A stretch of DNA of 64,000 nt from Microbacterium sp. RU1D (GTDB lineage: Bacteria; Actinomycetota; Actinomycetes; Actinomycetales; Microbacteriaceae). The translations under genes and the position numbers were made by a program. The stretch lies in assembly GCF_900156435.1 (NCBI RefSeq), contig NZ_FTPQ01000001.1, forward strand, positions 434,001-498,000, written 5' to 3'. The notes under the pieces are model-generated. The model searched no databases and was not told the DNA's origin. It saw only the letters and a list, made by a program, of their open reading frames with translations. Positions 5,895 through 39,403 of the stretch are shown here, piece after piece (positions within the stretch are counted from its first letter, which is position 1; every line of letters starts with the position of its first letter).

Positions 5895-5898
5895 AGCG

Positions 5899-17967: not shown

Positions 17968-19104
17968 TTAGGGGAGGACCCAGCTCGGCGCGGTGAGAGA
18001 GTTTGTATTAAGCCACGCCCGCTCAGACGAATCGTCGTAAAGCACCACGCGCATCTTCTCCCTGAGGAGCGCGAGCATACCCGCATCCGCCCCATATCCC
18101 GCGGCGTCCGAGAACCTTGTTCTGAGCTCGTCGGCCGTCAAGGTCGCGTCGTGCGCTCCGCGTCGCCAATAAAGAATGAGGTCAGCGTCCCCATTGGCGC
18201 GCAAGCCATCGATGATCGCCCTCCACCACCACCGATCCGTGGCTCCGAGTGAGCAGCCGAAGATGATGAAGAGGTCACTCTCGGGGAACAGCGCTTCATA
18301 CTTCACCTTGTTCTGTGCCCAGTACGGCTTGGAGAGCGTGCGTGCGTCACCGTCCGCTTCATCGATGCCAAATAGCAGTGATCGCGGCGTGTACTGAACA
18401 CCGTGCGGATGGACCACATCGGATATGAGGTTGGCGACCATGTAGAACGATGCTCGCTCGCGTGCGTCCGAGTGTCCTCGAGGATTTGGATGGAAGTTGA
18501 TGTTGCGGTCTGACCATCGGTGCGGGTGCGGATCGAACTGCTCCTGGTCGAGGTAGACGAAGTCGTCGAGCAGTGTCGTGTAGTTGAAGTTGATGAACTG
18601 GAAATTGAAGATATCGCCGATGTCCACCCGCTGGGTCAGCTTCATCTTGTGGTACTCGTCCGCGTCTTCGATGTCCCCCAGAAACTCCATGTAGGAGTTG
18701 ATGGTCGACTCGCGCGCCACTGCGATGTCACCCAGCCTGGAGAGCACGTCCGGCGTGGCGACTTGGTCGAGGAAGCTCGCGAACTCTCGTTGGATCTTCC
18801 TCACGTCGGCAACGATCTGCCCCGCCGGGACACCGCCGTCGCTCCGAAGTGTCTCGATGGCGTTCTCGACATCGCTCCAATTCTCGGCGCCAGCGGCTTG
18901 GAGCGACTCCATCTGCTCCAGGATCAGATTGGTGGGCTCAAACTTTCGATATTTCAGGAAGTGATAGAACGACTCGTATCGCGTGTCTGTTGGAGCCCCA
19001 AGGCCAGATAGGACCTGAATATCGAACCCATTGCCGACCAACGCCATCACGTTGTACTGCGTTCTCGCCTCGGCAAAGCGACTCGTGAAGTCCTCGTAGC
19101 CCAT
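17968..19104 (-). CDS. abiH: AbiH family bacteriophage abortive infection protein
   Basis: 378-aa protein of the AbiH family. Diagnostic elements in order: ALVGNGFDIQVLSGLGAPT near residue 21, SFYHFLKYRKF, FQFINFNYTTLLDDF near 170, VVHPHGVQYTPRSLLFGIDE near 232-251, and DLFIIFGCSLGATDRWWW near 274-291. AbiH members stop phage growth by an unknown, probably nucleotide-dependent, mechanism; the glycine-rich N-terminus suggests a nucleotide-binding fold. The length is normal for the family and no disruption is seen. It lies in the same orientation as the DUF4209-like gene upstream but with about 215 bases between, so a shared transcript is possible, not shown. Confidence 0.88.
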   Translation of the reverse strand: MGYEDFTSRFAEARTQYNVMALVGNGFDIQVLSGLGAPTDTRYESFYHFLKYRKFEPTNLILEQMESLQAAGAENWSDVENAIETLRSDGGVPAGQIVADVRKIQREFASFLDQVATPDVLSRLGDIAVARESTINSYMEFLGDIEDADEYHKMKLTQRVDIGDIFNFQFINFNYTTLLDDFVYLDQEQFDPHPHRWSDRNINFHPNPRGHSDARERASFYMVANLISDVVHPHGVQYTPRSLLFGIDEADGDARTLSKPYWAQNKVKYEALFPESDLFIIFGCSLGATDRWWWRAIIDGLRANGDADLILYWRRGAHDATLTADELRTRFSDAAGYGADAGMLALLREKMRVVLYDDSSERAWLNTNSLTAPSWVLP

Positions 19105-23792: not shown

Positions 23793-24154
23793 GCCCTCAG
23801 GATAGGGTGCGTTTTCCCGCTTATCCAGGTATTTTCTTGGTGTGCAGGTGTGGGTAGGCGAGTGCCGCTAAAGGGCGTCGCTCACCCATGGTGCCTGCGT
23901 GCATTGCTTCCTGTTCCTCGTGGATTGTCTCGTCTTTCGTCGTCTTCGTCGTCTTCGTCGTCGTCTTCTTCGTCATCTACTTGCGGGCGTGCGGTGACTC
24001 GATGGCCCTAGTCGACAACCTGTTTCTGCACTTGCGCCGCTGGGGATCTATGCGAGCTCTCGACACGTCGACGGGGAAAATGTTGGCCCTCGACCGGAGT
24101 CTGGATCTGACCGGATAGCGTGCTGTCTAGACTGCCGTTTATTGGGGGTAAGTG
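23793..24154. other. Intergenic region upstream of relaxase and defence operon
   Basis: Divergent space of about 360 bases between the relaxase remnant and the sacsin-like helicase gene. Relaxase genes of this type often have oriT just upstream, so a remnant origin could lie here, but I could not identify a convincing nic site. It contains the pyrimidine repeat at 23931-23974, and a GGGGG ribosome-binding site at 24144-24148 for the rightward gene. Confidence 0.45.
23931..23974. repeat. CGTCGTCTT-type pyrimidine-rich microsatellite
   Basis: About 44 bases made of CGT, CTT and CGTCGT units without a single A on the top strand (purine-only complement). No good frame uses it, so it is probably noncoding. 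Such tracts are prone to slippage and to unusual DNA structure. Confidence 0.6.
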
Positions 24155-27100
24155 GTGACCGACACTGCTCAGGCATGGACGCCTGAACCGATTCTCATCC
24201 GCGAAATCGAAGAGCAATTCGAGCGAGCCATCGGTTCGTATCGCGCAGACCCAAAGCTCATCGTCGAGCACGCGAACCTCGAGGAGTCAATCCGAGTTGG
24301 GGGCTACGCGAATCGCACCCTGCTGGAGCTGGTTCAAAACGCGGCTGATGCGATGGCTGGCACTACACCCGGTTCGGACGAGCTGGGTCGCGTAGAGATC
24401 GTGCTCGACCCAAGCTCGAAGACCCTGTACTGCGCCAACTCTGGGCGAGGGTTTTCGAAGCAAGGGCTTGAAGCGATGGCCCACGCCTACTTGAGTGCGA
24501 AGCGGGGCGATGAGATCGGGCGATTTGGTCTGGGATTCAAGTCCGTCCTCGCCCTGACCGACTCCCCGCAGGTGCTGAGCCGGAGTGTGTCTTTCGAGTA
24601 CAACTCGCCCATTGCGAAGACTGCGATTCGAGAGGTTGGATCGGGCGCTCGGCGCCTGCCGGTGCTGAGAACGGCAACGTTACTTGACGCTGGCGAATCC
24701 ATCGCGCGCGATGCCACGCTGGGGGAGCTCGCGAGCTGGGCAACCACGGTGATCAGACTTCCCGGCATCCTTCACGTCGACCGCATTCAGGCCGAGATGA
24801 GGACCTTCGCTTCGGAGTTCCTACTGTTCGTGGGCGCCGTGAGAGAGATCCACCTCCGTGTCCTTGGCGACCAAGGCTTCGAAACGAGCCATGTCTCTCG
24901 TGACATGGGACTCGGGCGCTTCAAGATCGAAAGACCCGATGGCAGCGGCGACGAGTGGATCGTGGGAGACCGGATGCATGCACCGTCGCCTTCGGCACGC
25001 CGAGAGGTGGGAGAGGCGGTCTCGAGAGACGAGATCAAGATCAGCGTCGCTGTACCTTTGCGTCCGCGCCGAGCCGGCCTGAGGGAGAAGGACGATCGCG
25101 GTACGCAGGTTGGGCAGTTCTGGAGCTATTTCCCGCTGCAGGACAACACCTCAGCCACCGGTTTCTTCAATGCGCCCTGGAGTGTCAATGACGATCGCAC
25201 GACATTGCTGCGCAATGAGTACAACCGAGAGATTCTCGCCACGATGGCGGAAGTCTTCCTCGAGCTTGTCCCGCAAGTCCGGACTGCCGAGGATCCGGCG
25301 GCTCACCTCGACTACCTCCCTGCTCGCGGTCGGGAGGAACGGTCGTACGGTGACTCGATCCTGTGCGCAGACGTGCCGCGCCTCGCTGGCCAAGGCGGAT
25401 TAGTACCCGACAGTGCGGGGACGCTCCTATCAGCGGCTGAGCTGGTTCCGCTTGACTTCGCCGTCATCGACGATCTGAAAATCGATGAGTCGGTTCACAA
25501 AGCATGGATCGAATCGCCCAACACCGGCGGCGATGTCCCTCACTGGAAGTGTTATAGCTCCAGTCAGCGAGTACTCCGTCTTAGCGAGGTCTTCGCTGCG
25601 AGCAGCGATCCCGACCTGTTCTTCGAGGACGCCGGGCCGCGGGCGCGCCGTATCGAGATGGCTCTCAGATCTCTACCCAAGCGCGGGATGTTGTCCTGGC
25701 TTCGAGAGTGGGCGGAGGGAACGCACCTGATTTCCACCGCCAACGCATTGCGCTTCTGTTTCGACCGGCGGACGAATCCGACCGTCATCGAAGCTAAAGT
25801 CATTCCCACATCGAGCGGTGCCAAGGCCCTCAAGGATAAGGATCTGGTGTTCCTGCACCAGGTGGAGGACCTCGAGATCGAGGGTGCCGTCTTCGTCGAC
25901 CCCGACTTTCTCGCGCATGCCGAGACGGAGAAGCTGCTCCGCGAATGTGGATTCCGTGATCTAGATCCAATCGCGATCCTCAACGCTCGCACCGCGGTGC
26001 TCACCCCGAACGCCGATACATCTCTACAGGGCAAGTTCTGGGACGCCGCACTCGGTGTAAACCCGCGCGACGCGATGAAGGTCATCTCAGCTCACCCGCA
26101 AGCAGTCATTCTTGTGCCCACGAGGGGCGGCGGGTGGGCATGGCCGCAACAAACATTCGACCTCGATGAGACTCTCCCCGGTGCAGATGGCAACCTGCTG
26201 CTCGATCACGAGCGTTGCTTTCCGGCGGTCGCACATGCACTCGGTGTCGTCCGTGCGCCTCAGGCGGACTACCCGTTCGAGGATGAGTTCGCCGCCACCG
26301 ACTATGAGAAATGGGTGCTGCGGGAGCTGAACTCGCGCCTTACTCCCGACGATCGTCCGATCGAACGCATCACTCTCTACCCGAGGCGTGACTCATCGCC
26401 GGGACCGTTCTCCGTCCTCCTCATGCTCGCCGATTCAGATGCGAGCGCGCCTTCTCGCGAGCTCTGGACGCGAGGACTCATGGAGTTTGGCGACAGCGCG
26501 TGGGACTGCGAGGACATCGACACCGGAGCCTCGTATGCCGTTCCGTCGCCGGTCAGGTGGGCAGTGGACGCTGTGGGAATCGTGAACTCCAGCCGCGGAT
26601 ATCTCGCGCCCCGACAGACCGTCTCTGCATCTCTGGTGAGGTACGACGGCCTCGTCCCTCTGTTCCGTGGTCCGCGATCAATGGAAGAGTCGCTCGGGCT
26701 TCCCGAGGACCTCGAATCCATGTCCTTCGAGGTCGCGAGAACCGCCCTGGGGCAGGATCTGTATCCCGCCACACTGAAGGACGACGTCCTCGCCGAATTC
26801 ATTCTCATCGCAGCGCGGATCGTCCAGAACGAGGCACCGCTCGCCTCTATACCGTCACGGGTGCACCGCGCGATCGAGTCTCGACCACCTGGGGCGGTGT
26901 ACCTCGCCACCACAGACGAGCAGGAGTCGTTCCTGCGTGCGAAGCAGCGGCCATACCTACGTGTGTCACCGGATCAGGCAGATCAATTCGTCGCCGACGT
27001 CGGTTGCCGACGATTCGAGGAGAGCTTTTCGTTCTCGATGGTTATCGAGGGCCAGCAGGACCTTCAAAGGATCCTCGACGCGTATCCCGGATTACGCACA

Positions 27101-28939
27101 GAGTTCTCGGTACGACTCGCTGGCGTTCGATTCGCAAGGGCGCTCCACATCGCTAAACGTGTGACAACCGAGGACGGCGTCGAGGACCAGCCGTTGGACT
27201 GGCATCTTGATGGTCACGATCTCGTCGTCCGTGCCGATGCGGACGAGCGACGAGTCTTGTCGCTCTTGAGCGAGGCGTTCGAGCTGCGACTGAACAACGC
27301 GCAGTTGAGCGCCATTCTTCAGGCCGGCCAGGACCATCGGCTCGAAGTGCTACGCCAGCAAGCACGAACGATCGAGTCGGATGCCGACCGTTTGGATCTC
27401 TACATCGGCCCAGATGACTTGAAAGACGCCCTACCCACCGGCCTATGGACCGCGCTCGAAGCGCAGGGTGTTGTTGGCGAACACACGTCCGCGTCCGAGC
27501 TCTTTCTGACGGTGTATGGGTCGGACTCCCTGAAAACCCTTGCGGACCGTTTCCGGGAAGAGGGTTACTCAGACGTCCCCGACACCTGGGCGGGTTCACC
27601 AGCGGCGATCTCGTGGGTGCGGAAGATGGGATTCGCGTCGTCGTATGCGGGTCAGCGAAACCAGCCCCGCCCCGAAGAATTCGTCGTCGCGGGTGCAGTT
27701 CGGCTGAACAAGCTTCATACCTTTCAGAAGAAAATCAGCGAGGACCTGCGTACGGTCCTCACCCAGCCGTCGGCGGCAGGCCCCTCGCAAAAGGGAATGG
27801 TCGAACTGCCGACCGGTGCGGGCAAGACGCGCGTCGCAACGGAAACCGTTCTGAGACTGTTCGTCGACGAAGTACTTAGCGGCACTATCCTCTGGATCGC
27901 ACAGTCTGCCGAGCTTTGCGAGCAGGCCGTTCAGACTTTCCAATCTGTGTGGCGCTACCTAGGCGACGAACGTCCGCTGACTATCGGCCGACTCTGGGAC
28001 ACCAACATGGTCCACGAGCCGGACACCGAGTTCGCCGTGATCGTCGCAACGGACGCCAAGATAGCGACCATCATGGACCGCGACGATTACGCATGGTTGA
28101 GCACGCCCGCGGCCGTATTCATCGACGAGGCACATCGCGCCGGAGGATCGGGACGCTACAGGAAGATCCTGAGCTGGCTCGGCGTCGACGGGCGCAGCTG
28201 GGAACGCCCTCTCGTCGGTCTGTCGGCAACACCGTTCAAGGGAAGCGCGAACGATTCGAGCGGCACCAGAGAACTCGTCGCCCGTTTCGGATCGAATCGG
28301 CTAACGGCCTTCGAGTCGGATGCCTACCGGCAATTGGTCGCTTTGGGGGTGCTTGCCAAGGTCCGGCACGAGGTACTCCCCTCCGGCATCAACGTGGAAC
28401 TGAGCGAGCCCGAGCAGACCACGTTGCAGACAAATCGTCTGATCGACCGCAATCTCTATGAGCGGATCGGACGCAACGAGCAGCGAATGCGGGTGCTCGT
28501 CGATCACATCCTGAGCGTCCTCGGCTCGCACCCCGCTTGGCCGATATTGGTCTTTACACCGAGCGTTCTCTCAGCACAGGTACTCGCGGCCTCCTTGGGC
28601 TACCGCGGCATAGAAGCGGCTTCGGTCAGTGGACAGACCGGCCGCCAGGAGCGACGGGATGTGATCCAGAAGTTCCAAGAGGGCAAGATTCGCGTACTCG
28701 CCAACTGTGATCTGCTCGTACAGGGTTTCGATGCCCCTGGCGTACGCGCTCTCTACATCGCACGCCCAACATTCAGCCCAAGCGCCTACATCCAGATGGC
28801 TGGTCGAGGGTTGCGCGGAAAAGAGAACGGCGGCAAGGAGGAGTGTCTGATTGTTGACGTTGCTGACAACTGGGGTGCGATGAATGACTTCCTCGGCTAC
28901 AGGGACTACGAAGATCTGTGGGAAGAGCAGAGCGCATGA
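24155..28939 (+). CDS. HSP90/sacsin-type ATPase fused to SF2 helicase
   Basis: About 1594 aa. The N-terminus is a GHKL/HSP90-type ATP-binding domain of the sacsin kind: LLELVQNAADAM near 54-65, a GRGFSKQGLEAM lid region, and IGRFGLGFKSVLAL near 120. A middle of about 800 residues has no named domain. The C-terminus is a superfamily 2 helicase: Walker A ELPTGAGKT near 1217, DEAH box FIDEAHRAGG near 1322, LVGLSATPFKG, and motif VI IQMAGRGLRG near 1545. GTG at 24155 suits the GGGGG site better than GTG at 24152. It is first in an operon overlapping the next gene (ATGA). The combination with DrmA/DrmB suggests a phage-sensing or DNA-translocating role; this is inference. Confidence 0.85.
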   Translation: MTDTAQAWTPEPILIREIEEQFERAIGSYRADPKLIVEHANLEESIRVGGYANRTLLELVQNAADAMAGTTPGSDELGRVEIVLDPSSKTLYCANSGRGFSKQGLEAMAHAYLSAKRGDEIGRFGLGFKSVLALTDSPQVLSRSVSFEYNSPIAKTAIREVGSGARRLPVLRTATLLDAGESIARDATLGELASWATTVIRLPGILHVDRIQAEMRTFASEFLLFVGAVREIHLRVLGDQGFETSHVSRDMGLGRFKIERPDGSGDEWIVGDRMHAPSPSARREVGEAVSRDEIKISVAVPLRPRRAGLREKDDRGTQVGQFWSYFPLQDNTSATGFFNAPWSVNDDRTTLLRNEYNREILATMAEVFLELVPQVRTAEDPAAHLDYLPARGREERSYGDSILCADVPRLAGQGGLVPDSAGTLLSAAELVPLDFAVIDDLKIDESVHKAWIESPNTGGDVPHWKCYSSSQRVLRLSEVFAASSDPDLFFEDAGPRARRIEMALRSLPKRGMLSWLREWAEGTHLISTANALRFCFDRRTNPTVIEAKVIPTSSGAKALKDKDLVFLHQVEDLEIEGAVFVDPDFLAHAETEKLLRECGFRDLDPIAILNARTAVLTPNADTSLQGKFWDAALGVNPRDAMKVISAHPQAVILVPTRGGGWAWPQQTFDLDETLPGADGNLLLDHERCFPAVAHALGVVRAPQADYPFEDEFAATDYEKWVLRELNSRLTPDDRPIERITLYPRRDSSPGPFSVLLMLADSDASAPSRELWTRGLMEFGDSAWDCEDIDTGASYAVPSPVRWAVDAVGIVNSSRGYLAPRQTVSASLVRYDGLVPLFRGPRSMEESLGLPEDLESMSFEVARTALGQDLYPATLKDDVLAEFILIAARIVQNEAPLASIPSRVHRAIESRPPGAVYLATTDEQESFLRAKQRPYLRVSPDQADQFVADVGCRRFEESFSFSMVIEGQQDLQRILDAYPGLRTEFSVRLAGVRFARALHIAKRVTTEDGVEDQPLDWHLDGHDLVVRADADERRVLSLLSEAFELRLNNAQLSAILQAGQDHRLEVLRQQARTIESDADRLDLYIGPDDLKDALPTGLWTALEAQGVVGEHTSASELFLTVYGSDSLKTLADRFREEGYSDVPDTWAGSPAAISWVRKMGFASSYAGQRNQPRPEEFVVAGAVRLNKLHTFQKKISEDLRTVLTQPSAAGPSQKGMVELPTGAGKTRVATETVLRLFVDEVLSGTILWIAQSAELCEQAVQTFQSVWRYLGDERPLTIGRLWDTNMVHEPDTEFAVIVATDAKIATIMDRDDYAWLSTPAAVFIDEAHRAGGSGRYRKILSWLGVDGRSWERPLVGLSATPFKGSANDSSGTRELVARFGSNRLTAFESDAYRQLVALGVLAKVRHEVLPSGINVELSEPEQTTLQTNRLIDRNLYERIGRNEQRMRVLVDHILSVLGSHPAWPILVFTPSVLSAQVLAASLGYRGIEAASVSGQTGRQERRDVIQKFQEGKIRVLANCDLLVQGFDAPGVRALYIARPTFSPSAYIQMAGRGLRGKENGGKEECLIVDVADNWGAMNDFLGYRDYEDLWEEQSA

Positions 28940-30456
28940 TCCTAGTTCCAGACCTCGCTGACATTGAACGAGTCGCTAACAGCGACGCCGAACGCCGACT
29001 CGCGCGGCTCCTCCGACAAGTCGACTCAGATCCAGACGCTGTGGCGTTCTACTCGGTGCGGCTTCGCTCTCACGCATACAAGCAACAAGCGGAGGCCGAC
29101 TTCGTCATCCTCTTCCACGGTGTCGTCGTCGTCGTCGAAGTCAAGGGCGGCGGCGTGAGGAAGCATGATGGTGTTTGGTACTCAGTCGATCGCCGCGGTG
29201 ACTGGCACAAACTTGCGACCTCCCCGATGGAGCAGGCGCAGTCCGCGGCATTTGCTCTTCGAGACATCCTGAAGGATGAGGGGCTCGGCTGGCTCGCCCA
29301 TGAAGCCATTGTCGTGACTCCGGACATCGACTCGCCGCCCCACTCCGTTGAGTGGCGTCCCACACATTGGGTTGCGAAAGACCGGATGAGCGTCGATGGC
29401 GTCGCGCACGCGCTGCAAGACGTTGTAAGTGCCGCGCGAAGTGCCCCCGTGAATCAGAAGCTCGCCCGCATCACTGACTTGAGGGCCCGACTTTTTGGCG
29501 AGTTCACCCGCATCCCAGTGATCGACGCACAGCGAGGCGCAGTGCTCGAGGAACAGAATCGCGCAACCGAGGGTCAAGCGCGTGTATTAGCATCGCTCGC
29601 GCGCAATCCACGAGTACTGGTGCAGGGAGGGGCTGGCACCGGGAAGTCCGTTGTCCTGGCGGAGGGCGCCAAGCAGGAATCAGACCAAGGTCGACGCGTC
29701 CTCATCACGTTCGGATCCCCTGGCCTTGTCGACTTCTTTGCGCCCCGAGTCGCGGGCAGAGACGTTGACGTCATCCCGTTCCATTCCCTTGTTCAGGGGA
29801 CGAGATATGACGTGGTGTTCGTCGATGAAGCACAAGACCTCATGACCGCGGACGGAATGGACGCTATCGACGCGCTCCTCGTGGGTGGTCGCACGAGCGG
29901 CCGATGGCGAATGTTCCTCGACCCGAACAACCAGGCTCACATCGACGGTGCGTTTGATGGAGATGTGCTTGAGCTCATCGCGGCCGAGGCGACATCGCTG
30001 GATCTGGATCTGAACGTTCGCAACACTCGAGCAATCGTCCACGTGGTGCAGGAGTACCTCGGCGCAGACGTTGGGGACCCCGGCATAGTGCATGGAGAGA
30101 AAGTGCGGTGGCACACACCAACCGGGTCAGGGGGCGTTGAGGAGGGCGAGTCCGCGGCATCAGAGCTCGTGTCGGATGGTGCGAGCCGCTCGGGCGTCTG
30201 GATCATCAGAGCGGATTCAGTGGATCCTCCCGCGCTCACTGCCGGCGGATTCACTATCCTAAGCCCACGCTTCGCGAAAGGACTGGAGGCAGAGCATGTC
30301 GTCGTGTGCTGCCTCCCAGCTGAGTATGACGTACCCGGCTTGGCCGCGTTCTACGTCGCCGTCACGCGTGCTCGGGTTTCGCTGACCATCGTCGCGTCTG
30401 CGGCGGACAAGCGACGTCTGCAAGTCCTCCTCAAGAGCCGCCTGGAGGAGAAGTGA
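28936..30456 (+). CDS. NERD nuclease domain and UvrD/DUF2075-like helicase
   Basis: 506-aa protein. The N-terminal 120 residues form a NERD (nuclease-related) domain: VILFHGVVVVVEVKGGG contains the E-x-K of the restriction-endonuclease-like fold. A superfamily 1-type ATPase follows: Walker A VQGGAGTGKSVVLAEG near 228, Walker B YDVVFVDEAQDLM near 291, a LDLNVRNTRAIV-type motif, and C-terminal FAKGLEAEHVV and FYVAVTRARVSLTIV (UvrD C-terminal 2). The ATG at 28936 overlaps the previous stop as ATGA, and its own stop overlaps the DrmA-like start as GTGA, so expression is tightly coupled to both. Likely a DNA-degrading helicase-nuclease of the defence operon. Confidence 0.85.
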   Translation: MILVPDLADIERVANSDAERRLARLLRQVDSDPDAVAFYSVRLRSHAYKQQAEADFVILFHGVVVVVEVKGGGVRKHDGVWYSVDRRGDWHKLATSPMEQAQSAAFALRDILKDEGLGWLAHEAIVVTPDIDSPPHSVEWRPTHWVAKDRMSVDGVAHALQDVVSAARSAPVNQKLARITDLRARLFGEFTRIPVIDAQRGAVLEEQNRATEGQARVLASLARNPRVLVQGGAGTGKSVVLAEGAKQESDQGRRVLITFGSPGLVDFFAPRVAGRDVDVIPFHSLVQGTRYDVVFVDEAQDLMTADGMDAIDALLVGGRTSGRWRMFLDPNNQAHIDGAFDGDVLELIAAEATSLDLDLNVRNTRAIVHVVQEYLGADVGDPGIVHGEKVRWHTPTGSGGVEEGESAASELVSDGASRSGVWIIRADSVDPPALTAGGFTILSPRFAKGLEAEHVVVCCLPAEYDVPGLAAFYVAVTRARVSLTIVASAADKRRLQVLLKSRLEEK

Positions 30457-33400
30457 CATACACGTCAGCGCAGCGTCTTGCCCTTCGTCACCTCCGCGCC
30501 GCGTATGTCGGGCCGGAAGCAGGACCGGGCGAACTGATGACCAACCCGCCGAATAGGCAGTATTCGGTCGGAATGCTCTATCCATCCGAGGCCACCGATG
30601 CCACTGGGTCGCTCGAAGACAGCTATCCCGTTACAGATGCAGATGTTCAGTCCGGAGACGTCGACGAGGACGGAGCGACCGGGCCCGTCGCGGAGGACTG
30701 GCGCCCATCATCCGTTGCGCTGTCGTTCGTTTCGAGCATTCCGCACGTGCACTGCCAGTTGACAGGCGGCACCTACGAACGCGTCGTTGACGATGGACCG
30801 CCTAGATGGCAGCGAACGGGCTTCTCGTCGGGAGTCCTCGATCTATCAAGCACGGCCAAAATGCGGCAGCTGAGTGTCGGTGGGATTCCGGTCGAGGTGG
30901 GATCAAGGTGGAGGCAGTACGGCTCCGCATTCCTAGTGACGGTGCATGTCCGCGTCCTCGCGAAGAGCACGGGAGACGACCGACTCGACATCCCCCTCAC
31001 GCTCTTCCAAGCCGGGCTGAGCGTCACGCCGCCGGAGGCCGGGGCGTTCCTCGAATACGACCCAGCACGCTCCTTCGACGTGGATTCGGAGTCGGCTGAA
31101 ATCCGACTCCGCTATCGCGACCGAAAGGTCTACGCCGTCGGTCATGGGATGGCAGCGGACTGGGAGATCGACGACGGCGCAGTAACTCGAGTATTTCTCG
31201 AACCGGTTCCGAGCCTCGTCGTTGTCGGTATAGAAACCACGGGATTCGCCCCGGGCGCGCCGGAGTCGGAGGCTCTGCAGCTAAGCAGGCTCGCTCAGAT
31301 CGACACAGACACATCTGGCGTAGCTGCGAACCTGAATGCGTTCGTGAACGCCTTCGAGCAGTGGGTTGGTACACAAGAAGGTCGGGTGCTCACCTTCGGC
31401 ACTGAGTCGCACGTCGCCGCCAGGATAGTCGCCAGGTCGAGGGCCGCCGTCGAGCGAATGCGACAAAGCATCGAGCTTCTCAGTTCTCCGTCGAAGAAGG
31501 ATCTGCGCGCCGCCTTCTCCCTCGGCATGGCCGCCATGCGCCTACAGATGAGACAGACCGCGGCTCACCAAGTTGCGACTGAGTGGCCACTTCCGGAACC
31601 AAAATGGCGACCGTTCCAACTCGGGTTCATTCTTGTCGCTCTCGCCTCGACCGTGGACGAACTTCATGAAGACCGCGACCTGGTCGACCTGATCTGGTTC
31701 CCGACGGGTGGCGGCAAGACAGAGGCATACCTCGGCTTGTCAGCGATCGAGATCTTTCGCCGGCGCATAGCCGATGGGCCCGAGGGCGGTGGGACGGCAA
31801 TTCTCACCCGGTACACCTTGAGGCTTCTCACCACACAACAGTTCCAGCGGACAGCCGCATTGGTTTGCGCCATGGAACTGCTGCGGCGAGGTGGGCCGCA
31901 CGCCGATCCTCGAGCAAGTCTCATGTCGCCGTTCACGATTGGCCTGTGGGTCGGAAACGAAGTCACCCCCGGCACGAAGAGCGAGGCCAAGGACGCGCTC
32001 AGCCGTTTGCATAATGCTGCGCGTCCCGAAGAAGCAAACCAATTTCAGGTCGAGAGCTGTCCGTGGTGTCGCACAGCGCTTCTTCCTGAACGAAAGGACA
32101 CCAACCGCAGCCGATACGGATTCGAGTTCTCGGGCAACGATCTCAACATCCATTGCACCAACGCCGAATGTGAGTTCTCCAGCTCTCTACCCGTGTTGGT
32201 CGTCGACGATGAGATCTACGCGGAACCACCGACCATCTTGCTCGCGACGGTCGACAAATTCGCGCGGATCCAGTTTCGACCCGAGGCTGGAAGGCTACTA
32301 GGACTGGGCACGATCTTCCGCCCGCCCTCCATCGTTATTCAGGACGAGCTGCACCTCCTGTCCGGGCCGCTCGGCACAACAGTGGCCGTATTCGATGCCG
32401 TGATCCGGCTGCTGCTTCGCCATGCGGGAGGCGTACCCAAGATCATCGCTTCGACTGCCACCATCCGCGCATCCGACGATCAGGTCAGAGGTCTCTACGG
32501 TAGGCCGGTGGGGCTCTACCCTCCCGCAGGTCTCGACGACGATCGAACCTTCTTCTCACAACCTGCAAAGTCGGGTATGGGCCGGCTCTTCGTCGGTCTG
32601 ATGCCGCAATCTTTGTCGCAGGCATCGGGCGTCATCGCAGCGGCCTCGCCGCTCCTAGAGATTCCCGCGATCCTTGAACACGATCCTGCATCGGGCGCGA
32701 CGCGCGATTCTTATTGGACCGCCGTGATGTACCACAACAGCCTTCGCGAGCTTGGTCGGACGGGCACCCTTGTCGTTGACGACATCAACGGCCGACTGGA
32801 GACACGGGCAGAGCGTCTCGGACTCGCGTTGCGCCAAGTGCGTGCGGACAAAGTCCTCGAACTGACTTCCCGAAGAGGACCTGAGGAGCTCCCGAACGAC
32901 CTTCGCGAGTTGTCTCGTAGCGCGGATACCTCAGATCAGGCCGTGGACGTGGTCCTCTCCTCCAACATGCTGTCGGTTGGAATCGACATCCCGCGACTCG
33001 CCCTGATGCTGATGGTGGGGCAGCCGAAAACCACCGCGGAGTACATCCAGGCGACGAGTCGTGTCGGCCGAGGGAGCAATAGCGGCATCGTCACGACGCT
33101 GTTCCGATCCAATCGCGCTCGGGACCGATCGCATTTCGAGTCATTCCGCAGTTATCACGAGGCGTTGTACAGAAGCGTCGAGCCTACGAGCGTTACACCG
33201 TGGTCGCTTTCGTCGAGGGAGCGCTCTTTGGCCGGTGCTCTTGTCGCGCTAGCGAGGAACACGATCCCCGCTCTCGCGAGCAATGACTCAGCGGGGAACT
33301 TGAATCTTGCGGACCTTCAGATGCGGTCCTCCCTTGAGGCGCTCATCGCGGACTTCGTCGATGCGGTCACGCGGTCAGAACCAATGGAAGCCGCGGATAC

Positions 33401-33641
33401 GGAGAGCGCGGTCTGGGCTCTCCTCAGGGAATGGGATCGGCGCGCGTCCGATGCGCGGTCGGCTGGACTCTCTCTCCGCTATGACCGCGCGAAGTCCGAG
33501 GATGAGTCACTCCTCAAGCGGTTCGGTCAAGGCGGTGAGGGATTTCTAGTGGCCGACTCCATGAGGTCCGTCGAACCGAATGTGGCGGTCGAAGTCGTTG
33601 AGCCCAGAGAAGAGGTGACAAGTGGAACGAATCAAGCATGA
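30453..33641 (+). CDS. drmA: DISARM-type helicase DrmA
   Basis: 1062-aa helicase of the DrmA type, one of the two core DISARM proteins. The N-terminal GPGELMTNPPNRQYSVGMLYP resembles the conserved DrmA opening. Helicase motifs are LIWFPTGGGKTEAYLG (Walker A near 417), IQDELHLLSGPLGT (motif II near 630) and LSVGIDIPRLALM followed by EYIQATSRVGRG (motifs V-VI near 843-872). CPWCRTALLP with a later IHCTNAEC forms a four-Cys zinc site near 535-570. DrmA binds and translocates on DNA with DrmB. GTG at 30453 overlaps the previous stop (GTGA) after GGAGGAG, and its end overlaps the DrmB-like gene by 20 bases. Length and motifs look intact. Confidence 0.85.
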   Translation: MTYTSAQRLALRHLRAAYVGPEAGPGELMTNPPNRQYSVGMLYPSEATDATGSLEDSYPVTDADVQSGDVDEDGATGPVAEDWRPSSVALSFVSSIPHVHCQLTGGTYERVVDDGPPRWQRTGFSSGVLDLSSTAKMRQLSVGGIPVEVGSRWRQYGSAFLVTVHVRVLAKSTGDDRLDIPLTLFQAGLSVTPPEAGAFLEYDPARSFDVDSESAEIRLRYRDRKVYAVGHGMAADWEIDDGAVTRVFLEPVPSLVVVGIETTGFAPGAPESEALQLSRLAQIDTDTSGVAANLNAFVNAFEQWVGTQEGRVLTFGTESHVAARIVARSRAAVERMRQSIELLSSPSKKDLRAAFSLGMAAMRLQMRQTAAHQVATEWPLPEPKWRPFQLGFILVALASTVDELHEDRDLVDLIWFPTGGGKTEAYLGLSAIEIFRRRIADGPEGGGTAILTRYTLRLLTTQQFQRTAALVCAMELLRRGGPHADPRASLMSPFTIGLWVGNEVTPGTKSEAKDALSRLHNAARPEEANQFQVESCPWCRTALLPERKDTNRSRYGFEFSGNDLNIHCTNAECEFSSSLPVLVVDDEIYAEPPTILLATVDKFARIQFRPEAGRLLGLGTIFRPPSIVIQDELHLLSGPLGTTVAVFDAVIRLLLRHAGGVPKIIASTATIRASDDQVRGLYGRPVGLYPPAGLDDDRTFFSQPAKSGMGRLFVGLMPQSLSQASGVIAAASPLLEIPAILEHDPASGATRDSYWTAVMYHNSLRELGRTGTLVVDDINGRLETRAERLGLALRQVRADKVLELTSRRGPEELPNDLRELSRSADTSDQAVDVVLSSNMLSVGIDIPRLALMLMVGQPKTTAEYIQATSRVGRGSNSGIVTTLFRSNRARDRSHFESFRSYHEALYRSVEPTSVTPWSLSSRERSLAGALVALARNTIPALASNDSAGNLNLADLQMRSSLEALIADFVDAVTRSEPMEAADTESAVWALLREWDRRASDARSAGLSLRYDRAKSEDESLLKRFGQGGEGFLVADSMRSVEPNVAVEVVEPREEVTSGTNQA

Positions 33642-35430
33642 TCTCCGTCTGTCGGAGATCATTTCACCCTTCGGCGTCGGCGCGATTGTTGATGTGAGAG
33701 GGGAGTCGCTGATCGCAGCGGATACGTCGTGGTGGGACAAGAAGCACTCGCCCGAGATTCATTGCGAGCGCCTGCTACAGCGCATTGGCGCAGGCGAGCT
33801 TCGCGAGCCACCCACGCATTCGGGGAGAGTTGCGAAAGGCACCCCCAGCCTCCTCTACTGGCGATTCCCCGAGTGGCGGTTTTGCGAACGCTGCACGAAG
33901 CTTTCGGACCGATCGGGCAAGGATAAAGGCAAGTGGACCAATAAGTGCGCCTGCGGAGGCATCCTCGTGCCAATGCGCTACATCGCGATCTGCGAAAAGG
34001 GAAGCCACACCCAGGACATCCCCTGGTTCACGTGGGCACATCGCGGAAGTGATTCGGGGATAACCGACGCTGTGAGATTCTGTCGCGCGTACAAGGAACT
34101 GAGGTTCGTACGATCGGCGAAGTCCGGTGAAGGTCTGAAGTCGTTGCGAGTCGAGTGCGGGAGTTGCAAACGATCTCGATGCCTGTCGGACCTCGTCGCC
34201 AAGTCGGCGCTGGGTCGCGACGGTCTTCGTTGCAGCGGTCGACAGCCGTGGCAGGATCCGACTACAGCGGCCGTATGCGATCACGCTCTCGCTGCGGTTC
34301 AGCGCGGAGCGACAAGCAACTACATCGCCGAGCGACTCTCTGCGCTCGACATCCCGGAGGAGCGCCCGGCATCCGTCCAGCTCGCGGACAAGATTCGCGG
34401 ACACGTCTATTTCGACAAACTCGTGGCGGACAACGGCGGCCCGCAGTCCGACATGGTGTCCGAATGGATCGCGGCCGAGCTGAACACCACGAAAGACGTC
34501 GTCCTCGCAGTGGCCGGCCAAGACGGGACCGATCTCGATGAACCACTCATGGACTTGAAGGACGGAGAGTGGGCGGCATTCGTCAAGAAGCTCGAGCAAA
34601 GCGGGCGAGACGACAGCGGATCGGATTTCGTCGTCGACGGGTGGGATCTCTCACCGCGTCCCGACTGGCCGAGCACGCTGACAGGGCGCATCGACTCCAT
34701 CGGTCAAGTCCGTCGTGTCAGGGAGGTGCGCGCGCTCCTCGGATTTCGACGCCACGACGGGAATGCGGAGCGCATCATGGCAGACCTCGGACCTGATCAA
34801 CGACGGAAGCCGGTGTACCCAGCGATCGAGATGTTCGGTGAGGGTATTTTCCTGCGATTCAAAGAAGCTGTCCTGGCTGAGTGGGAGCGGCACCCCGAGG
34901 TGCTCGCGCGCGCTGATGTACTAATCGGCCGCCGAAACGCTACCGAATGGGCTCACCGGCTACCAACCCCGGAACCAAGATTCATCGCCCTGCACACGAT
35001 TGCTCATCTGTTGGTCCGGCGACTCGCATACGCGAGCGGTTACGCTTCGGCCTCCCTGCAGGAGCGGATCTACGCCAGCTCCGAAAGACCAGACAGGACG
35101 GCGGGCGTGCTCATCTACACTGCTGCCGGAGACGCGCAAGGCACCCTCGGCGGCCTCGTCCGCCTCGGAGCGCCGGACAAGCTGGTCCCGCTGCTGCTGG
35201 CCGCACTCGACGACGCCGACGTCTGCTCTAACGACCCGGTGTGTATTGAAAGCGACAGCCAGGGTTCCTCGAGTCTGAATCTGTCCGCATGCCACGGCTG
35301 CTCACTTGTTAGCGAGACCTCCTGCGAGTCAGGGAATAGGCTCCTGGACCGTCAGCTCGTGTTCGGCGGTCGTAGCGTTCCCGGCCTACTCGAAGGGGTT
35401 TTGGAGGAAGTCAGAACATCTGCGGCCTAA
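33622..35430 (+). CDS. drmB: DISARM-type DrmB, DUF1998 protein
   Basis: 602-aa protein matching DrmB. The opening LRLSEIISPFGVGAIVDVRG is the family's N-terminus. Cysteine pairs CERC and CACGG (near 92-112) and CEKG form zinc sites. The C-terminal DUF1998 contains LHTIAHLLVRRLAYASGYAS (near 457), SNDPVCIE, and NLSACHGCSLVSETSCE (near 550) followed by NRLLDRQLVFG. DrmB partners DrmA to form the DISARM core complex, which holds partially single-stranded DNA. The gene starts inside the end of drmA, showing translational coupling. No DrmC (phospholipase D-type) gene follows; the next gene is Vsr after about 130 bases. Confidence 0.87.
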   Translation: MERIKHDLRLSEIISPFGVGAIVDVRGESLIAADTSWWDKKHSPEIHCERLLQRIGAGELREPPTHSGRVAKGTPSLLYWRFPEWRFCERCTKLSDRSGKDKGKWTNKCACGGILVPMRYIAICEKGSHTQDIPWFTWAHRGSDSGITDAVRFCRAYKELRFVRSAKSGEGLKSLRVECGSCKRSRCLSDLVAKSALGRDGLRCSGRQPWQDPTTAAVCDHALAAVQRGATSNYIAERLSALDIPEERPASVQLADKIRGHVYFDKLVADNGGPQSDMVSEWIAAELNTTKDVVLAVAGQDGTDLDEPLMDLKDGEWAAFVKKLEQSGRDDSGSDFVVDGWDLSPRPDWPSTLTGRIDSIGQVRRVREVRALLGFRRHDGNAERIMADLGPDQRRKPVYPAIEMFGEGIFLRFKEAVLAEWERHPEVLARADVLIGRRNATEWAHRLPTPEPRFIALHTIAHLLVRRLAYASGYASASLQERIYASSERPDRTAGVLIYTAAGDAQGTLGGLVRLGAPDKLVPLLLAALDDADVCSNDPVCIESDSQGSSSLNLSACHGCSLVSETSCESGNRLLDRQLVFGGRSVPGLLEGVLEEVRTSAA

Positions 35431-35559
35431 CCATGAACGAGCCTCAATGACGTCTCGAGATGCAGGAACACTTCGTTGGCGGAACAGCCCCTGCGCTCCT
35501 TCGAAAGAGGGCACAAACTAAGACCGTAGCCCTGCTAGCGAAACTCGAGGAAGTGGCGG

Positions 35560-36072
35560 TTGACATTCTCTGATCCTCGCCCTGAATGGAACCCACCCCG
35601 TTCCAATCCGTCCTGGGCGAGCAGTCCGGGCGTCGCGAGATCGATGCGCTCCAACCGCGGTCGCGACACCAGCCCTGAGCGTGCACTTCGTAAGGAGTTG
35701 CACGCGGCTGGTTACAGATACAGAGTCGACTTTGCCCCCGGCCCCGATCGGCGCCGACGCGCAGACATCGTTTTCACAAGACTGCGCATCGCGATCTTCG
35801 TCGACGGGTGCTTCTGGCACTCATGCCCGGTCCACGGAACGGTGCCTAAGACGAACGCCGACTACTGGGTGCCGAAGCTGGAGCGGAACCGGCTTCGCGA
35901 CGTGGAGACAACCCGGGCGCTGGAAGCCGACGGCTGGGCGGTCATTCGTGTCTGGGAGCACGAATCGGTCGCTGCCGCCTCCGCACGCGTCATCGACGCG
36001 GTGAACGAGAAACGAAGGATGTTCGGCGAGGCCGACCTGCGACAGTCGTCCCGCCCGCCGGGGGTGCGATAG
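35560..36072 (+). CDS. vsr: Very short patch repair endonuclease
   Basis: 170-aa Vsr family endonuclease, which nicks at T:G mismatches arising from deamination of 5-methylcytosine. Motifs: NRGRDTSPERALRKELHAAG (near 31-50), RYRVDFAPGPDRRRRADIVF with the catalytic Asp, AIFVDGCFWHSCPVHG with the zinc/active-site residues (near 86-101), and the terminal GWAVIRVWEHE. TTG at 35560 follows GAGGAAG and retains the full N-terminus; a shorter ATG start at 35644 would remove 28 residues. It lies directly before a NaeI-like restriction gene and near an m5C methyltransferase, the usual setting for Vsr. Confidence 0.9.
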   Translation: MTFSDPRPEWNPPRSNPSWASSPGVARSMRSNRGRDTSPERALRKELHAAGYRYRVDFAPGPDRRRRADIVFTRLRIAIFVDGCFWHSCPVHGTVPKTNADYWVPKLERNRLRDVETTRALEADGWAVIRVWEHESVAAASARVIDAVNEKRRMFGEADLRQSSRPPGVR

Positions 36073-36079
36073 CGTCTCG

Positions 36080-37045
36080 ATGATGAGAAAGACGGCCGCG
36101 TTGCCAGGCAGTTTGTGCCTACCCGACGAGCGACGCGGGCGCACCTCCGCTCCCCACGTGGTCCATGGGGTGGACGACGATACTGAGCTCCAGAAGGTGT
36201 GGTCATGGCTCGTCGCCCGCCCGCTGCCCGTCCAGCTGACGCGAGCGGTCGACGATGCCGTGAAGTACGTTCTCGATGGAGCTCGGACGGGACGGTTCGA
36301 CCTGCTGAGTCCTGAGGTCGATTCCGACGAGCGAGCCTCGGTGGGCACGAAGCTTCAGTACCGCGTGCTGAATGAGCTGGGTCTCTACAAAGAGCCCCCG
36401 CTCGACACTTTGATCCTCGGGATCCCGGTCGAGCTCAAGGCCACGATCCGGTCGAACTGGATGATCCCGACAGAGGGCCAATGTGAGATCAGCGTCCTCA
36501 TCCAGGTGGATGTCGCGAGGCGACGTCACCGGGCGTTCCTGATGCGGGTCCACCGGGTGTGGCTGAACGACGGTGCCAACAAGGACGGAAAGCGTGGCGT
36601 CGCAGCGGATGCGCTCGCGCAGTTCTCACTTCCCCTGATCGATTGGACCTCGCTTCCCGCGGAGCCATTGATCCAGCTCACGGCAGCACAACTCGCTGTC
36701 GTCTTCGCGCCAAGAGTCGGTCAGACCTCTCGGCTGGCTTCGCTCTTCGGGTTCCTGCCAGACACGGTGATTCCTCGGTCCTCGATCGAAACGGTGTGTT
36801 TCGGAAACAGGGATCCGATGCGCCGGGCACGCCAGGCGAAGGATGCTGTTCTCGCCGCGTCGGGCCTGGAGGTGCTTGTCGGGACCTGGCTCACCGATCG
36901 GCTGCGGGCGAAGGAGCTCGGGTTCGATCTAGGTGATGATGCCTGGGTGGCCGTGAGTCCTGCAAAGGCTCACGACCGCGTCGACGTGACGCCTGCTCAG
37001 CTTGAGATCGAGTGGGACCCGCAAATACCTGGCGCGGGCAGTTAG
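36080..37045 (+). CDS. NaeI-like type II restriction endonuclease
   Basis: 321-aa protein, almost the same length as NaeI (317 aa). An N-terminal endonuclease part contains SVGTKLQYRVLNELGL and an acidic strand LILGIPVELKATIRSNW (near 112-128), giving a P-V-E-L-K version of the PD-(D/E)xK site. The C-terminal half (TSRLASLFGFLPDTVIPRSS and onward) would correspond to the NaeI DNA-binding domain with its CAP-like fold. NaeI itself cuts GCCGGC; specificity here is unknown. The gene follows Vsr by seven bases and its stop overlaps the stop of the convergent methyltransferase, so the three form one restriction-modification locus. Confidence 0.75.
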   Translation: MMRKTAALPGSLCLPDERRGRTSAPHVVHGVDDDTELQKVWSWLVARPLPVQLTRAVDDAVKYVLDGARTGRFDLLSPEVDSDERASVGTKLQYRVLNELGLYKEPPLDTLILGIPVELKATIRSNWMIPTEGQCEISVLIQVDVARRRHRAFLMRVHRVWLNDGANKDGKRGVAADALAQFSLPLIDWTSLPAEPLIQLTAAQLAVVFAPRVGQTSRLASLFGFLPDTVIPRSSIETVCFGNRDPMRRARQAKDAVLAASGLEVLVGTWLTDRLRAKELGFDLGDDAWVAVSPAKAHDRVDVTPAQLEIEWDPQIPGAGS

Positions 37046-38223
37046 GCGACGGCGAGGTCGAGGTCTTGTTCGTCCGCGATCCGTGCGGCGACTAGGTGCG
37101 GCTTGATCTGCTGTGCGATGGCTTGCGCCAGACCTGAGGGCACCGCGTTCCCGATCTGTCGTGCGATTTGGATCTTGGTGCCCACCCATCGATAGTCAGC
37201 CGGGAAATCCTGGATCAGCGATGCCTCGAAGTGGCTGATGACGCGGTCAACCGAGCGAACCGGGTCGCTGCGATGCTTGCCGTACTCCTCCACCCACTCG
37301 CCAGCCTCCCACTGAGGGTGCAGGTACTGCCCCTTCTCCGGCTTGAAGAACTCTGTCCGGATCGTCACCGATGGCATGTCCCAACGGAGCCGGCCCATGA
37401 CGTCGGTGGTGCCGGTCGGCTTGTTGGCCCAGCAGTTAGGAAGCAGCGCATGCGGAAGGTCGAACCGTCCGCCGCCTGGTGGTATGAAGCTGTATCGGTC
37501 GAGGCTCTTGCTCGTCGGTGTGCGCCGGATGTGGAGGTCGAGCCCGCGGAAGACTCCAGGCATCGTCTCTCCGAAGAAAGCGGACCTGGCGTCCGGAAGC
37601 TCCGTCGTCAAAGGATGCGGAGGGATCGCGCCGATCACATCCCGCACCGTCCGCCAGGGCTTCAGGCCCGACCCCTCGGCGGGATCCTTCGTGTGAGTAG
37701 CGTTGGGTAGATCGATTCGACCGATCCGCGATCCGATCACAATGGTCCGCTTGCGGCGCTGAGCGACGCCGTAGTCTGCAGCATTGAGCACTGCGTGCTG
37801 AAGTTCGTACTCGGCCAGAGCGCCATGATCGGCCTCCGCCAGCAGCATCGCGAACTCCGGCGACTTGGCAAAGCGATCGACGTTCTCGATGACGAAGACC
37901 TTGGGGCGCGAGTGCTTCACGAACCGCATGAACTCGCGCCAGAGCTGATTCCGAGGGTCGTTGATATCCTTCAGCCCGAGGTTCGAGAATCCCTGGCACG
38001 GTGGACCACCGATGATGATGTCGGCCTCAGGGATGGCCTCGTTGGGTACGCCTGCGATGTCGCCCGCGATCACATGCTCTTCGCCGAAGTTCGCCGCATA
38101 TGTGGCCGCCGCAACTCGATCCCACTCAACCGCCAGCACTGAACGGAACCCCTCGGCCGCGAACCCGACTGTCATGCCTCCGCAACCGGCGAAAAGGTCA
38201 ATCATGCGGAGGGATTTCGTCAT
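37042..38223 (-). CDS. DNA (cytosine-5)-methyltransferase
   Basis: 393-aa C5-methyltransferase with motifs in canonical order: I, MIDLFAGCGGMTVGF (near 6-20); IV, IIIGGPPCQGFSNLG with the catalytic Cys (near 75-89); VI, VFVIENVDRFA (near 114); VIII, AQRRKRTIVIGSR; and X, RQIGNAVPSGLAQAI near the end. It is convergent with the NaeI-like nuclease, with stop codons overlapping by four bases, so it is the presumed protective partner. It could also serve the DrmA/DrmB genes, since class 2 DISARM uses an m5C methyltransferase. The variable region between VIII and X, which sets specificity, cannot be decoded by eye. ATG at 38223 chosen as the first before motif I. Confidence 0.93.
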   Translation of the reverse strand: MTKSLRMIDLFAGCGGMTVGFAAEGFRSVLAVEWDRVAAATYAANFGEEHVIAGDIAGVPNEAIPEADIIIGGPPCQGFSNLGLKDINDPRNQLWREFMRFVKHSRPKVFVIENVDRFAKSPEFAMLLAEADHGALAEYELQHAVLNAADYGVAQRRKRTIVIGSRIGRIDLPNATHTKDPAEGSGLKPWRTVRDVIGAIPPHPLTTELPDARSAFFGETMPGVFRGLDLHIRRTPTSKSLDRYSFIPPGGGRFDLPHALLPNCWANKPTGTTDVMGRLRWDMPSVTIRTEFFKPEKGQYLHPQWEAGEWVEEYGKHRSDPVRSVDRVISHFEASLIQDFPADYRWVGTKIQIARQIGNAVPSGLAQAIAQQIKPHLVAARIADEQDLDLAVA

Positions 38224-38270
38224 AGACCGATGGTAAGTGCGGCCACCGACGTCGGCGTCATACCCCGCCG

Positions 38271-38453
38271 TTACCGGTCGAGTCGTAGGTCGAGGCGGCG
38301 GCACGCGACGGGAGCTCGCGCCTTCCCCCTCGGCAGCTCGGGAGCCGGCGCTAGCCCCTCTTCGTCCTCTAGCGTCAGGGCCCACCGCTCTCCAGCTATC
38401 TCCGAGCTGGCACGAGACTCTGCTCCGTGGACGCGGGCGACTCTGATGCTCAT
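38271..38453 (-). CDS. Possible 60-aa ORF upstream of the methyltransferase
   Basis: ATG at 38453 opens 60 codons on the methyltransferase strand, ending 47 bases before it. The middle (SSEIAGERWALTLEDEEGLA) has a protein-like composition, but both ends are Arg-rich and no HTH is visible, so it is not an obvious C-protein controller. A GAGTGG stretch precedes the ATG. The whole 38224-38617 space otherwise holds no gene; it probably carries the methyltransferase promoter. Confidence 0.25.
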   Translation of the reverse strand: MSIRVARVHGAESRASSEIAGERWALTLEDEEGLAPAPELPRGKARAPVACRRLDLRLDR

Positions 38454-38617
38454 CCACTCGCCGCCGCCCAAACCGTCGACGCGGCTGCGTCGGAGGTCCG
38501 CCCTTGCGCATATAGGACGCCGCGACCGGATAGATTCACAAGACTGCACCCTCGCATGTATTTGGCCAGAACGCCACCTTCGATGAGGGTCCAATCGACG
38601 GGCTCATCCGGGGAATC

Positions 38618-39190: not shown

Positions 39191-39403
39191 CAGAACCTCG
39201 CCGCAGCTGCGCTCTTCGCCCTCGACGAGCCGCTGGGAGCGAGCGGTGTCATTCCCCGGACCCCGAGCACACCCGCAGGTCGCAGCTCGGAATTCCAGCA
39301 GGTGCTTCGGTGTCACCACCGCTGTCAGTCACGAGAGGCGAGACTGCGCAATGCTCACCTCCGCGCCTCAAAGAACGCCGCTCCGGGGTCATCGAAACCC
39401 GAG

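Follow-up and report, generated by a model that had tools for sequence, protein, structure and literature searches.

Two classes of DISARM (defence island system associated with restriction-modification) have been described around the proteins DrmA and DrmB. Class 1 comprises DrmA, DrmB, DrmC, DrmD and DrmMI, and class 2 comprises DrmA, DrmB, DrmC, DrmE and DrmMII. The PADLOC definitions require DrmC for both DISARM types (PMC9252829). The core pair has been solved structurally. Serratia DrmAB binds 5′ overhangs, its ATPase rate is lowered by 5-methylcytosine (m5C), and DrmC is apparently non-essential for DISARM activity (PMC9142583). In this work we have analyzed a stretch of 64,000 nucleotides from Microbacterium sp. 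RU1D (contig NZ_FTPQ01000001.1, positions 434,001 to 498,000; hereafter the window, in whose coordinates positions are given). It contains four overlapping genes encoding a sacsin/HSP90-type ATPase fused to a helicase (SacHel), a NERD nuclease-helicase, and DrmA- and DrmB-like proteins. On balance we think that the four genes constitute one DrmAB-based system acting against phage or mobile DNA, which is DISARM-like but is not DISARM by either published definition.

Several other systems resemble this locus in part. ARMADA type II has a YprA-family helicase and a GajB/UvrD-like helicase in one operon, together with a BrxHII-like helicase, a PglX-like methyltransferase and a Vsr domain fused to the YprA protein (PMC12458937). 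GHKL ATPases occurring with superfamily 2 (SF2) helicases, nucleases, cytosine methylases and Vsr have been argued to form restriction systems, the MORC/paraMORC group (Iyer et al. 2008, PMC2292703). A DISARM-like system beside McrBC has been mentioned, with a separate paper announced (Bell et al. 2024, PMC11090510), and a later preprint refers to many uncharacterised DISARM-like classes (Bell et al. 2025, PMC12458937). ShdA, found in Pseudomonas DISARM-like operons, is a different partner (PMC10270631).

The window operon and its proteins

The first-pass annotation of the window had described a four-gene operon, and the genes, their coordinates and their overlaps were all as it stated. SacHel (24152..28939, + strand) has 1595 aa and is a sacsin/HSP90-type GHKL ATPase fused to a RadD/Rad25-like SF2 helicase; its true start may lie some codons 3′ of the annotated start. 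Its stop overlaps the ATG of the second gene (28936) as ATGA. The latter encodes a NERD nuclease-superfamily 1 (SF1) helicase (28936..30456, +; the open frame begins at 28918); here the overlap with the next gene is GTGA, formed by the stop at 30456 and the DrmA start codon GTG at 30453. DrmA is a YprA-family SF2 helicase of 1062 aa (30453..33641, +), and the start of DrmB, a DUF1998/MZB protein of 602 aa (33622..35430, +), lies 20 bases inside it.

Profile searches agree with the annotation on the nature of the first two proteins. The N-terminus of SacHel matches the sacsin ATP-binding domain (72 bits against a cut-off of 50), and the C-terminus matches the ResIII and Helicase_C helicase profiles (residues ~1190-1590; 27719..28921, +). 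The motifs of both domains are intact, and invariant in eight aligned sequences including that of the window, ruling out a broken or chance frame. The sacsin type of ATPase is best known from a human ataxia protein. In an AlphaFold2 model of residues 1-1190 (mean predicted local distance difference test score, pLDDT, 86.9) the GHKL ATPase and transducer region occupies residues 31-375 (24242..25276, +). The top structural match is human sacsin SR1 (5v44_C; Z 14.7, root-mean-square deviation (rmsd) 3.5, 186 aligned), with HSP90s at Z ~14 and the SMCHD1 ATPase module (6mw7_A) at Z 13.3 (rmsd 4.5, 284 aligned, residues 35-375). Matches within 1 Z are regarded as tied, Foldseek alone puts HSP90s first, and the coverage of the search extends essentially up to residue 377. 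The ATP-binding domain, the fold and the conserved N and G motifs are those of a sacsin-type GHKL protein. For the C-terminal helicase the closest solved structure by sequence is RadD (6jde).

The second protein has a NERD domain and an SF1 helicase of the Viral_helicase1/SLFN-g3 kind. The D...ExK residues of the nuclease (D61, E74 and K76) are present and, with the Walker motifs, are invariant in 19 sequences. Its model (pLDDT 84.1) matches SLFN11 (E 4.5e-14) and Dna2 (1.5e-9), although superposition on SLFN11 over the whole protein is poor (template modelling (TM) score 0.43, rmsd 16.6).

The DrmA- and DrmB-like character of the last two proteins is borne out by PADLOC (1.5e-193 for DrmA, 5.2e-68 for DrmB), by the NCBIfam DrmB family (409 bits, cut-off 240) and by the solved Serratia pair (2.4e-134 and 7.1e-64 respectively). 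DrmA scores 452 bits with DISARM DrmA against 28 bits with YprA, but 781 bits with the NCBIfam DISARM DrmA equivalog model is below the cut-off of 950. Its portion ahead of the region of firm alignment with Serratia DrmA is also ~170 residues shorter (209 vs 377); comparing the N-terminal lengths by motif search gave scattered offsets. Serratia R1294 and V1296, which make DNA or base contacts, correspond to R1038 and V1040 of the window protein, conserved in at least 90% of the 49 loci described below, and K803 aligns with the conserved K601. A variable acidic stretch at ~47-90 may be the counterpart of the autoinhibitory trigger loop of Serratia DrmA (176-232), where the alignment is not significant.

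Comparison with described systems

The annotation had noted that the locus lacks DrmC, DrmD and DrmE. Consistent with this, no DrmC, DrmD, DrmE or DrmMI model of PADLOC was among the listed matches of ten scanned window proteins (for the methyltransferase, the best 25 of 62). DrmA and DrmB of DISARM type I are therefore present without DrmC, DrmD or DrmMI, and of type II neither DrmC nor DrmE was found; since there is no DrmC, the operon falls under neither published definition.

Set beside class 2 DISARM (one locus compared, that of the Halobacterium plasmid L194), the window shares the DrmA-DrmB pair, a large first gene and a nearby m5C methyltransferase, but has SacHel and an SF1 helicase and no DrmC or DrmE. 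With class 1 it shares DrmA-DrmB and the equivalents of Serratia R1294 and V1296; it differs in the lack of DrmC, DrmD and DrmMI from the operon, in the shorter N-terminal side of DrmA and in having m5C methyltransferase neighbours. None of the ARMADA hallmarks was among the profile matches of the operon proteins, and term searches of PMC12458937 gave no hit to HSP90, GHKL, HATPase or sacsin. Ordinary DISARM and ARMADA were accordingly rejected as the identity of the locus, their defining genes being missing by profile and text comparison; TALON and BRIGADE were compared by their textual descriptions. The MORC/paraMORC systems likewise combine a GHKL ATPase with an SF2 helicase, a cytosine methyltransferase and Vsr, but here the ATPase is sacsin-type, is fused to the helicase and occurs with DrmAB. 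Neither sacsin nor DUF1998 turned up in a text search of PMC2292703. Loci L186 and L187 are possibly of the McrBC-adjacent DISARM-like kind. They have DrmAB, an SF1 helicase, NERD-type or AAA helicase proteins and an m5C methyltransferase (with Vsr also in L187), but differ in having a DUF2357 (McrC-type) gene upstream and no SacHel.

A term search found no passage on this gene set in PMC12839542, PMC3710099, PMC10952713 or PMC13092281, and no description of it was found among the listed results from the open-access literature, most subscription journals lying outside the search. It thus appears that such a branch had been foreseen in print, while the specific system is undescribed in the literature searched.

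Recurrence of the operon

Within the family, SacHel was found in 8 of 299 genomes, that of the window included, and DrmA and DrmB adjoin it in all seven others, which excludes a chance arrangement. We scanned species genomes with an alignment of eight SacHel sequences (80 loci, the best of 90 relatives). Together with a scan of viral contigs and a DrmB search, and with two duplicates removed, this gave 58 distinct full-length or near-full-length SacHel loci. Excluded before counting were L059 (same contig as L038), L065 (same contig as L043) and scan loci with 800 or fewer matched SacHel residues, including L105, L090 and L094; genome G694, discussed below, lies outside the locus counts. Gene content was called by six-frame profile searches.

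DrmA-DrmB accompanies SacHel in 49 of the 58 loci; of the nine without it, two (L074 and L127) end before the downstream side is visible. The hosts of the 49 loci, many of them soil bacteria, are Actinomycetota from no fewer than ten families, with a single Acidobacteriota bin (L072). Co-occurrence with DrmAB in unrelated genomes had been set beforehand as support for a single system, and is what we observe. The annotation's proposal of a new DISARM subtype or DrmAB-based system is thus supported by this recurrence.

The order SacHel-(SF1 helicase)-DrmA-DrmB is co-directional in 47 of the 49 loci. It occurs as SacHel, NERD-helicase, DrmA, DrmB in 25 loci, as SacHel, SF1 helicase, DrmA, DrmB in 17 (two with a NERD gene after DrmB), and as SacHel, DrmA, DrmB in five. 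The exceptions are L068 (NERD type), where SacHel lies in two frames, and L087, where it is inverted. In L079 SacHel and the slot gene are ~550 bases apart. The slot between SacHel and DrmA holds a NERD-helicase in 26 loci and a UvrD-like SF1 helicase without NERD in 18, and is empty in five. The latter helicases are UvrD/GajB-like by Pfam and PADLOC (4 of the 18 scanned). The NERD-helicase, taken by the annotation as the second component, is that in 26 of the 49 loci but is not a constant part. A nuclease in the C-terminus of the UvrD-like protein was considered and rejected: the conservation line of 19 sequences, judged by eye, has no catalytic pattern.

DrmC was found in none of the 49 loci, over the stretches covered, using our own DrmC model, which was built from nine of the 11 class 1 loci; in 17 of the 49 the stretch covered is limited by short flanks. 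In a sample of the phylum, 24 of 396 genomes have a DrmB-family protein, in 25 loci (a split frame in G039 being counted once). Eleven are class 1 DISARM, three are SacHel-type (the window, L165 and L175), five have a NERD-helicase and one a UvrD-like helicase without SacHel, and five are other. Some of the 14 non-class-1 loci may be class 2 DISARM, the classification having been made without DrmE. Most DrmB loci are thus not of the SacHel type, whereas members of this SacHel family as a rule have DrmAB.

Some SacHel loci and relatives have different surroundings. L105 (Nostoc) has a GHKL-only relative near DrmA and DrmB. Genes weakly related to DrmD and DrmMI occur in a few loci. L061 and L085 have, upstream of SacHel and divergently oriented, a DrmD-like gene (SNF2-type helicase) and a DrmMI-like gene of methyltransferase type, which in L061 are SNF2 and Eco57I/MmeI by Pfam. 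A DrmD-like SNF2-type helicase is present in L074, and a DrmD-like gene follows DrmB in L079 and L082. The DrmAB-less relatives L088 and L093 adjoin the PADLOC candidate PDC-S68, L093 also having PglZ and PglX, and L097 adjoins an HKD-Snf2 protein; the hosts of these three are two Pseudomonadota and a Coatesbacteria bin. On the Arthrobacter plasmid p2MP (L195) a SacHel relative without a helicase has an m5C methyltransferase gene before it and, after it, genes for an ATP-binding protein, a PD-(D/E)XK protein and a Z1 protein. Just before DrmAB-type operons lacking SacHel lies a sigma-70-like protein of ~1200-1270 aa in L046 (6031-9627, −) and L182 (5081-8902, +), and in L183 (Tsukamurella plasmid) a RelA/SpoT-domain protein (5684-7078) directly precedes a UvrD-like helicase, DrmA and DrmB.

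Co-inheritance of the operon proteins

In the NERD type (25 loci, L068 lying outside the test) the pairwise distances of SacHel, the NERD-helicase, DrmA and DrmB correlate at 0.964-0.985, and none of 999 permutations was as high. In the SF1 type (18 loci) the corresponding values for the three proteins other than SacHel (helicase, DrmA and DrmB) are 0.942-0.971. A branch with 97 support in the DrmA tree separates the 11 class 1 rows, with two others, from the rest, and the rows of each SacHel type group together. When plasmid-borne relatives are included the SF1 type joins class 1 within a 97-support branch, with the NERD type outside; class 2 is represented there by one row (L194), whose very long branch makes it little informative. 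A single clade for the 14 Sac-associated DrmAs among 31 was rejected (approximately unbiased (AU) test, p 3.3e-5; 14 rows vs 17), in a test that used quick trees and was chosen after the extended DrmA tree had been seen. The SacHel tree (36 of the SacHel rows, L195 being in this tree only) has the same main groups as the DrmA tree. Our reading is that SacHel probably joined, or was swapped between, two DrmA lineages, and its pairing with both argues for a functional link.

Island and probable insertion site

Between ~7 and 41 kb most GC values are 0.59-0.65 (0.67-0.69 at 21-24 kb), lower than the 0.67-0.75 of the right flank, which is what an acquired island should show. Its boundary is the 3′ end of dnaB (39400..39440, −), the probable insertion site. 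dnaB is present in all 13 same-genus genomes searched, and in the five whose surroundings were compared DNA homology on the dnaB side begins at 39400-39411. In one of these five, G694, SacHel, NERD-helicase, DrmA, DrmB and methyltransferase genes lie in one direction, with a divergent Vsr gene. After this cassette, at the island edge and ~11 kb from the full dnaB, the 3′ end of dnaB is present a second time as a partial copy of 537 bases (C11 219363-219898). The core proteins are 56-65% identical to those of the window and the flanking genes match at 78-93% in DNA. This suggests that the dnaB 3′ end is a site where such cassettes were acquired independently, the cassette being exchanged at a fixed position. 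No long second copy of the dnaB end was found on the left side of the window.

That left side carries other genes. Near the operon is an AbiH-family abortive infection protein (17968-19104, −; 72.5 bits, cut-off 30.9), beside a 1663-aa protein with weak AAA matches (12679-17670). A MobF/TrwC relaxase-helicase frame (21269-23677, −) matches only from profile position ~133-150, its N-terminal part missing, and is probably a relic of a mobile element. A RES-domain protein and an Xre/MbcA/ParS antitoxin-type protein (9649-10961, −) are likely, from their domains, to be a toxin-antitoxin pair.

Restriction-modification neighbours

Downstream of DrmB, profile matches agree with the annotated Vsr-type endonuclease (35560..36072, +; 125 bits, cut-off 98), NaeI-like type II restriction endonuclease (36080..37045, +; 102 bits, cut-off 25) and m5C DNA methyltransferase (37042..38511, −). 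The profile match of the last spans 37090-38235, and the long N-terminal portion of its open frame is perhaps untranslated. The Vsr is the sole match in its genome, as is the methyltransferase at E 1e-15. The latter matches DrmMII models at best at 5e-46, and DruM and MTase_II models score better. An m5C methyltransferase lies no more than 7 kb from the core in 42 of the 49 Sac loci vs none of 11 class 1 loci; for Vsr the figures are 24 of 49 and one of 11. The counts for the Sac loci are lower bounds because of the short flanks. In the phylum background there are 52 matches to Vsr, in 46 of 198 genomes, and 36 to the methyltransferase, in 29 of 100, so that chance proximity is roughly estimated at less than 1%. 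NaeI relatives occur at only five of the loci searched (L057, L064, L066, L071 and L083). Vsr is a frequent but inconstant neighbour and NaeI an occasional one.

At 40% identity the nearest methyltransferases form two main clusters and a few outliers, mixed between types. In the SF1 type their distances correlate with those of SacHel (r 0.436; 0 of 999 permutations as high). A near-constant yet exchangeable methyltransferase fits a general m5C self-mark; the alternative is the ordinary clustering of restriction-modification genes in defence islands, and Vsr, NaeI and the methyltransferase of the window may together form a type II restriction-modification system that is complete in itself. The annotation had suggested that these genes could supply the self-marking needed by class 2 DISARM. 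The methyltransferase and Vsr are indeed frequent neighbours, but the methyltransferase distances do not track those of SacHel in the NERD type. The self-marking role proposed for the neighbouring methyltransferase is plausible.

Proposed mechanism

The gene content points to a probable bacterial anti-virus operon. Defence as such is inferred here, as are the methyl mark, the division of labour and every other functional step, and the clamp-and-unwind model draws on published accounts of DrmAB (PMC9142583) and of GHKL restriction systems (PMC2292703). An m5C methyltransferase, here the neighbour, would mark host DNA. DrmA-DrmB would load, as shown for Serratia DISARM, on unmodified DNA with a free 5′ single-stranded end, and would then translocate. 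SacHel, as an ATP-gated clamp of the sacsin/HSP90/SMCHD1 kind with its own helicase, would close on the engaged DNA; it would take the part of DrmD or DrmE, acting as switch and as second motor. The neighbouring SF1 helicase would unwind the DNA and, where it bears a NERD domain, could cut the displaced strand in place of DrmC. Tentatively, we would place these loci in a distinct DrmAB class, in which the sacsin-type clamp-helicase is a checkpoint between two steps, the detection of unmodified 5′ ends by DrmAB and the action of an exchangeable effector (SF1 helicase or helicase-nuclease), and in which any adjacent m5C methyltransferase supplies the self-mark. The effector step is the weakest part of this scheme, a nuclease being recognised within the operon only in the NERD type.

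Alternative explanations

A number of observations weigh against a single system. SacHel occurs without DrmAB in seven loci whose downstream side is visible (L080, L084, L088, L089, L091, L093 and L097). Conversely, seven others (L045, L046, L166, L168, L176, L177 and L183) have DrmAB and a NERD or SF1 helicase but no SacHel. Since each is found without the other, SacHel is a separable module. In the SF1 type its distances correlate with those of the other proteins at only 0.766-0.801, and in the NERD type the methyltransferase and SacHel distances are hardly correlated (r 0.049; 329 of 999 permutations as high). Serratia DrmA R810 aligns with R608 of the window protein, at a position that is not conserved across the 49 loci. 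No nuclease motif was recognised in the SF1 slot proteins, and the empty-slot type lacks such a protein altogether, so that, judged from the sequences, cleavage by a protein of the operon is not common to all types. The separate occurrence of SacHel and DrmAB, the independent exchange of the methyltransferase in the NERD type and the scarcity of NaeI relatives would all follow if two or three independent cassettes (DrmAB-SF1/NERD, SacHel, and a Vsr-NaeI-methyltransferase type II system) lay side by side in a defence island. As an account of the whole locus we consider this unlikely, given the ATGA, GTGA and 20-base overlaps, the same co-directional order in 47 of 49 loci, the correlations of 0.96-0.985 in the NERD type, and the joint replacement at one chromosomal site seen in G694. 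These counter-points leave the third cassette untouched, and for the Vsr-NaeI-methyltransferase set the side-by-side explanation may well be right.

An ordinary DISARM that has lost DrmC and acquired accessory genes would explain the clear homology of DrmA and DrmB to their DISARM counterparts, the solved pair included, and could tolerate the loss if DrmC is non-essential as reported (PMC9142583). It is nevertheless improbable. DrmC is missing from all 49 loci vs one of 11 class 1 loci (by a model made from nine of those 11, and with some short flanks), the Sac-associated DrmAs fall outside the class 1 DrmA group with 97 support, and the window DrmA is both below the curated DISARM cut-off and shorter by ~170 residues.

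Relatives of these kinds of protein act in DNA repair, and the helicase of SacHel is nearest to RadD, so the genes might be read as a repair or genome-maintenance operon (YprA/MrfA-like helicase, RadD-like helicase, nuclease-helicase and MutL-like ATPase) unconnected with immunity. The patchy presence in 8 of 299 family genomes, the nearby AbiH, Vsr and NaeI genes, the exchange at an insertion site, and the far better match of DrmA to DISARM DrmA than to YprA make this the least credible explanation. The reading of the four genes as one DrmAB-based defence system is the one we prefer.

Significance

The patterned exchange of partners around DrmAB is a natural experiment on what the core pair needs. 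Detection rules that require DrmC would miss the SacHel type; among the 25 DrmB loci of the 396 genomes, 14 are without class 1 content and three of these are SacHel-type. The analysis places a sacsin-type ATPase in a predicted bacterial defence operon. If this is correct, ATPases of the HSP90/sacsin type would be direct parts of DNA-targeting immunity, in a cassette exchanged as a unit at a fixed chromosomal site.

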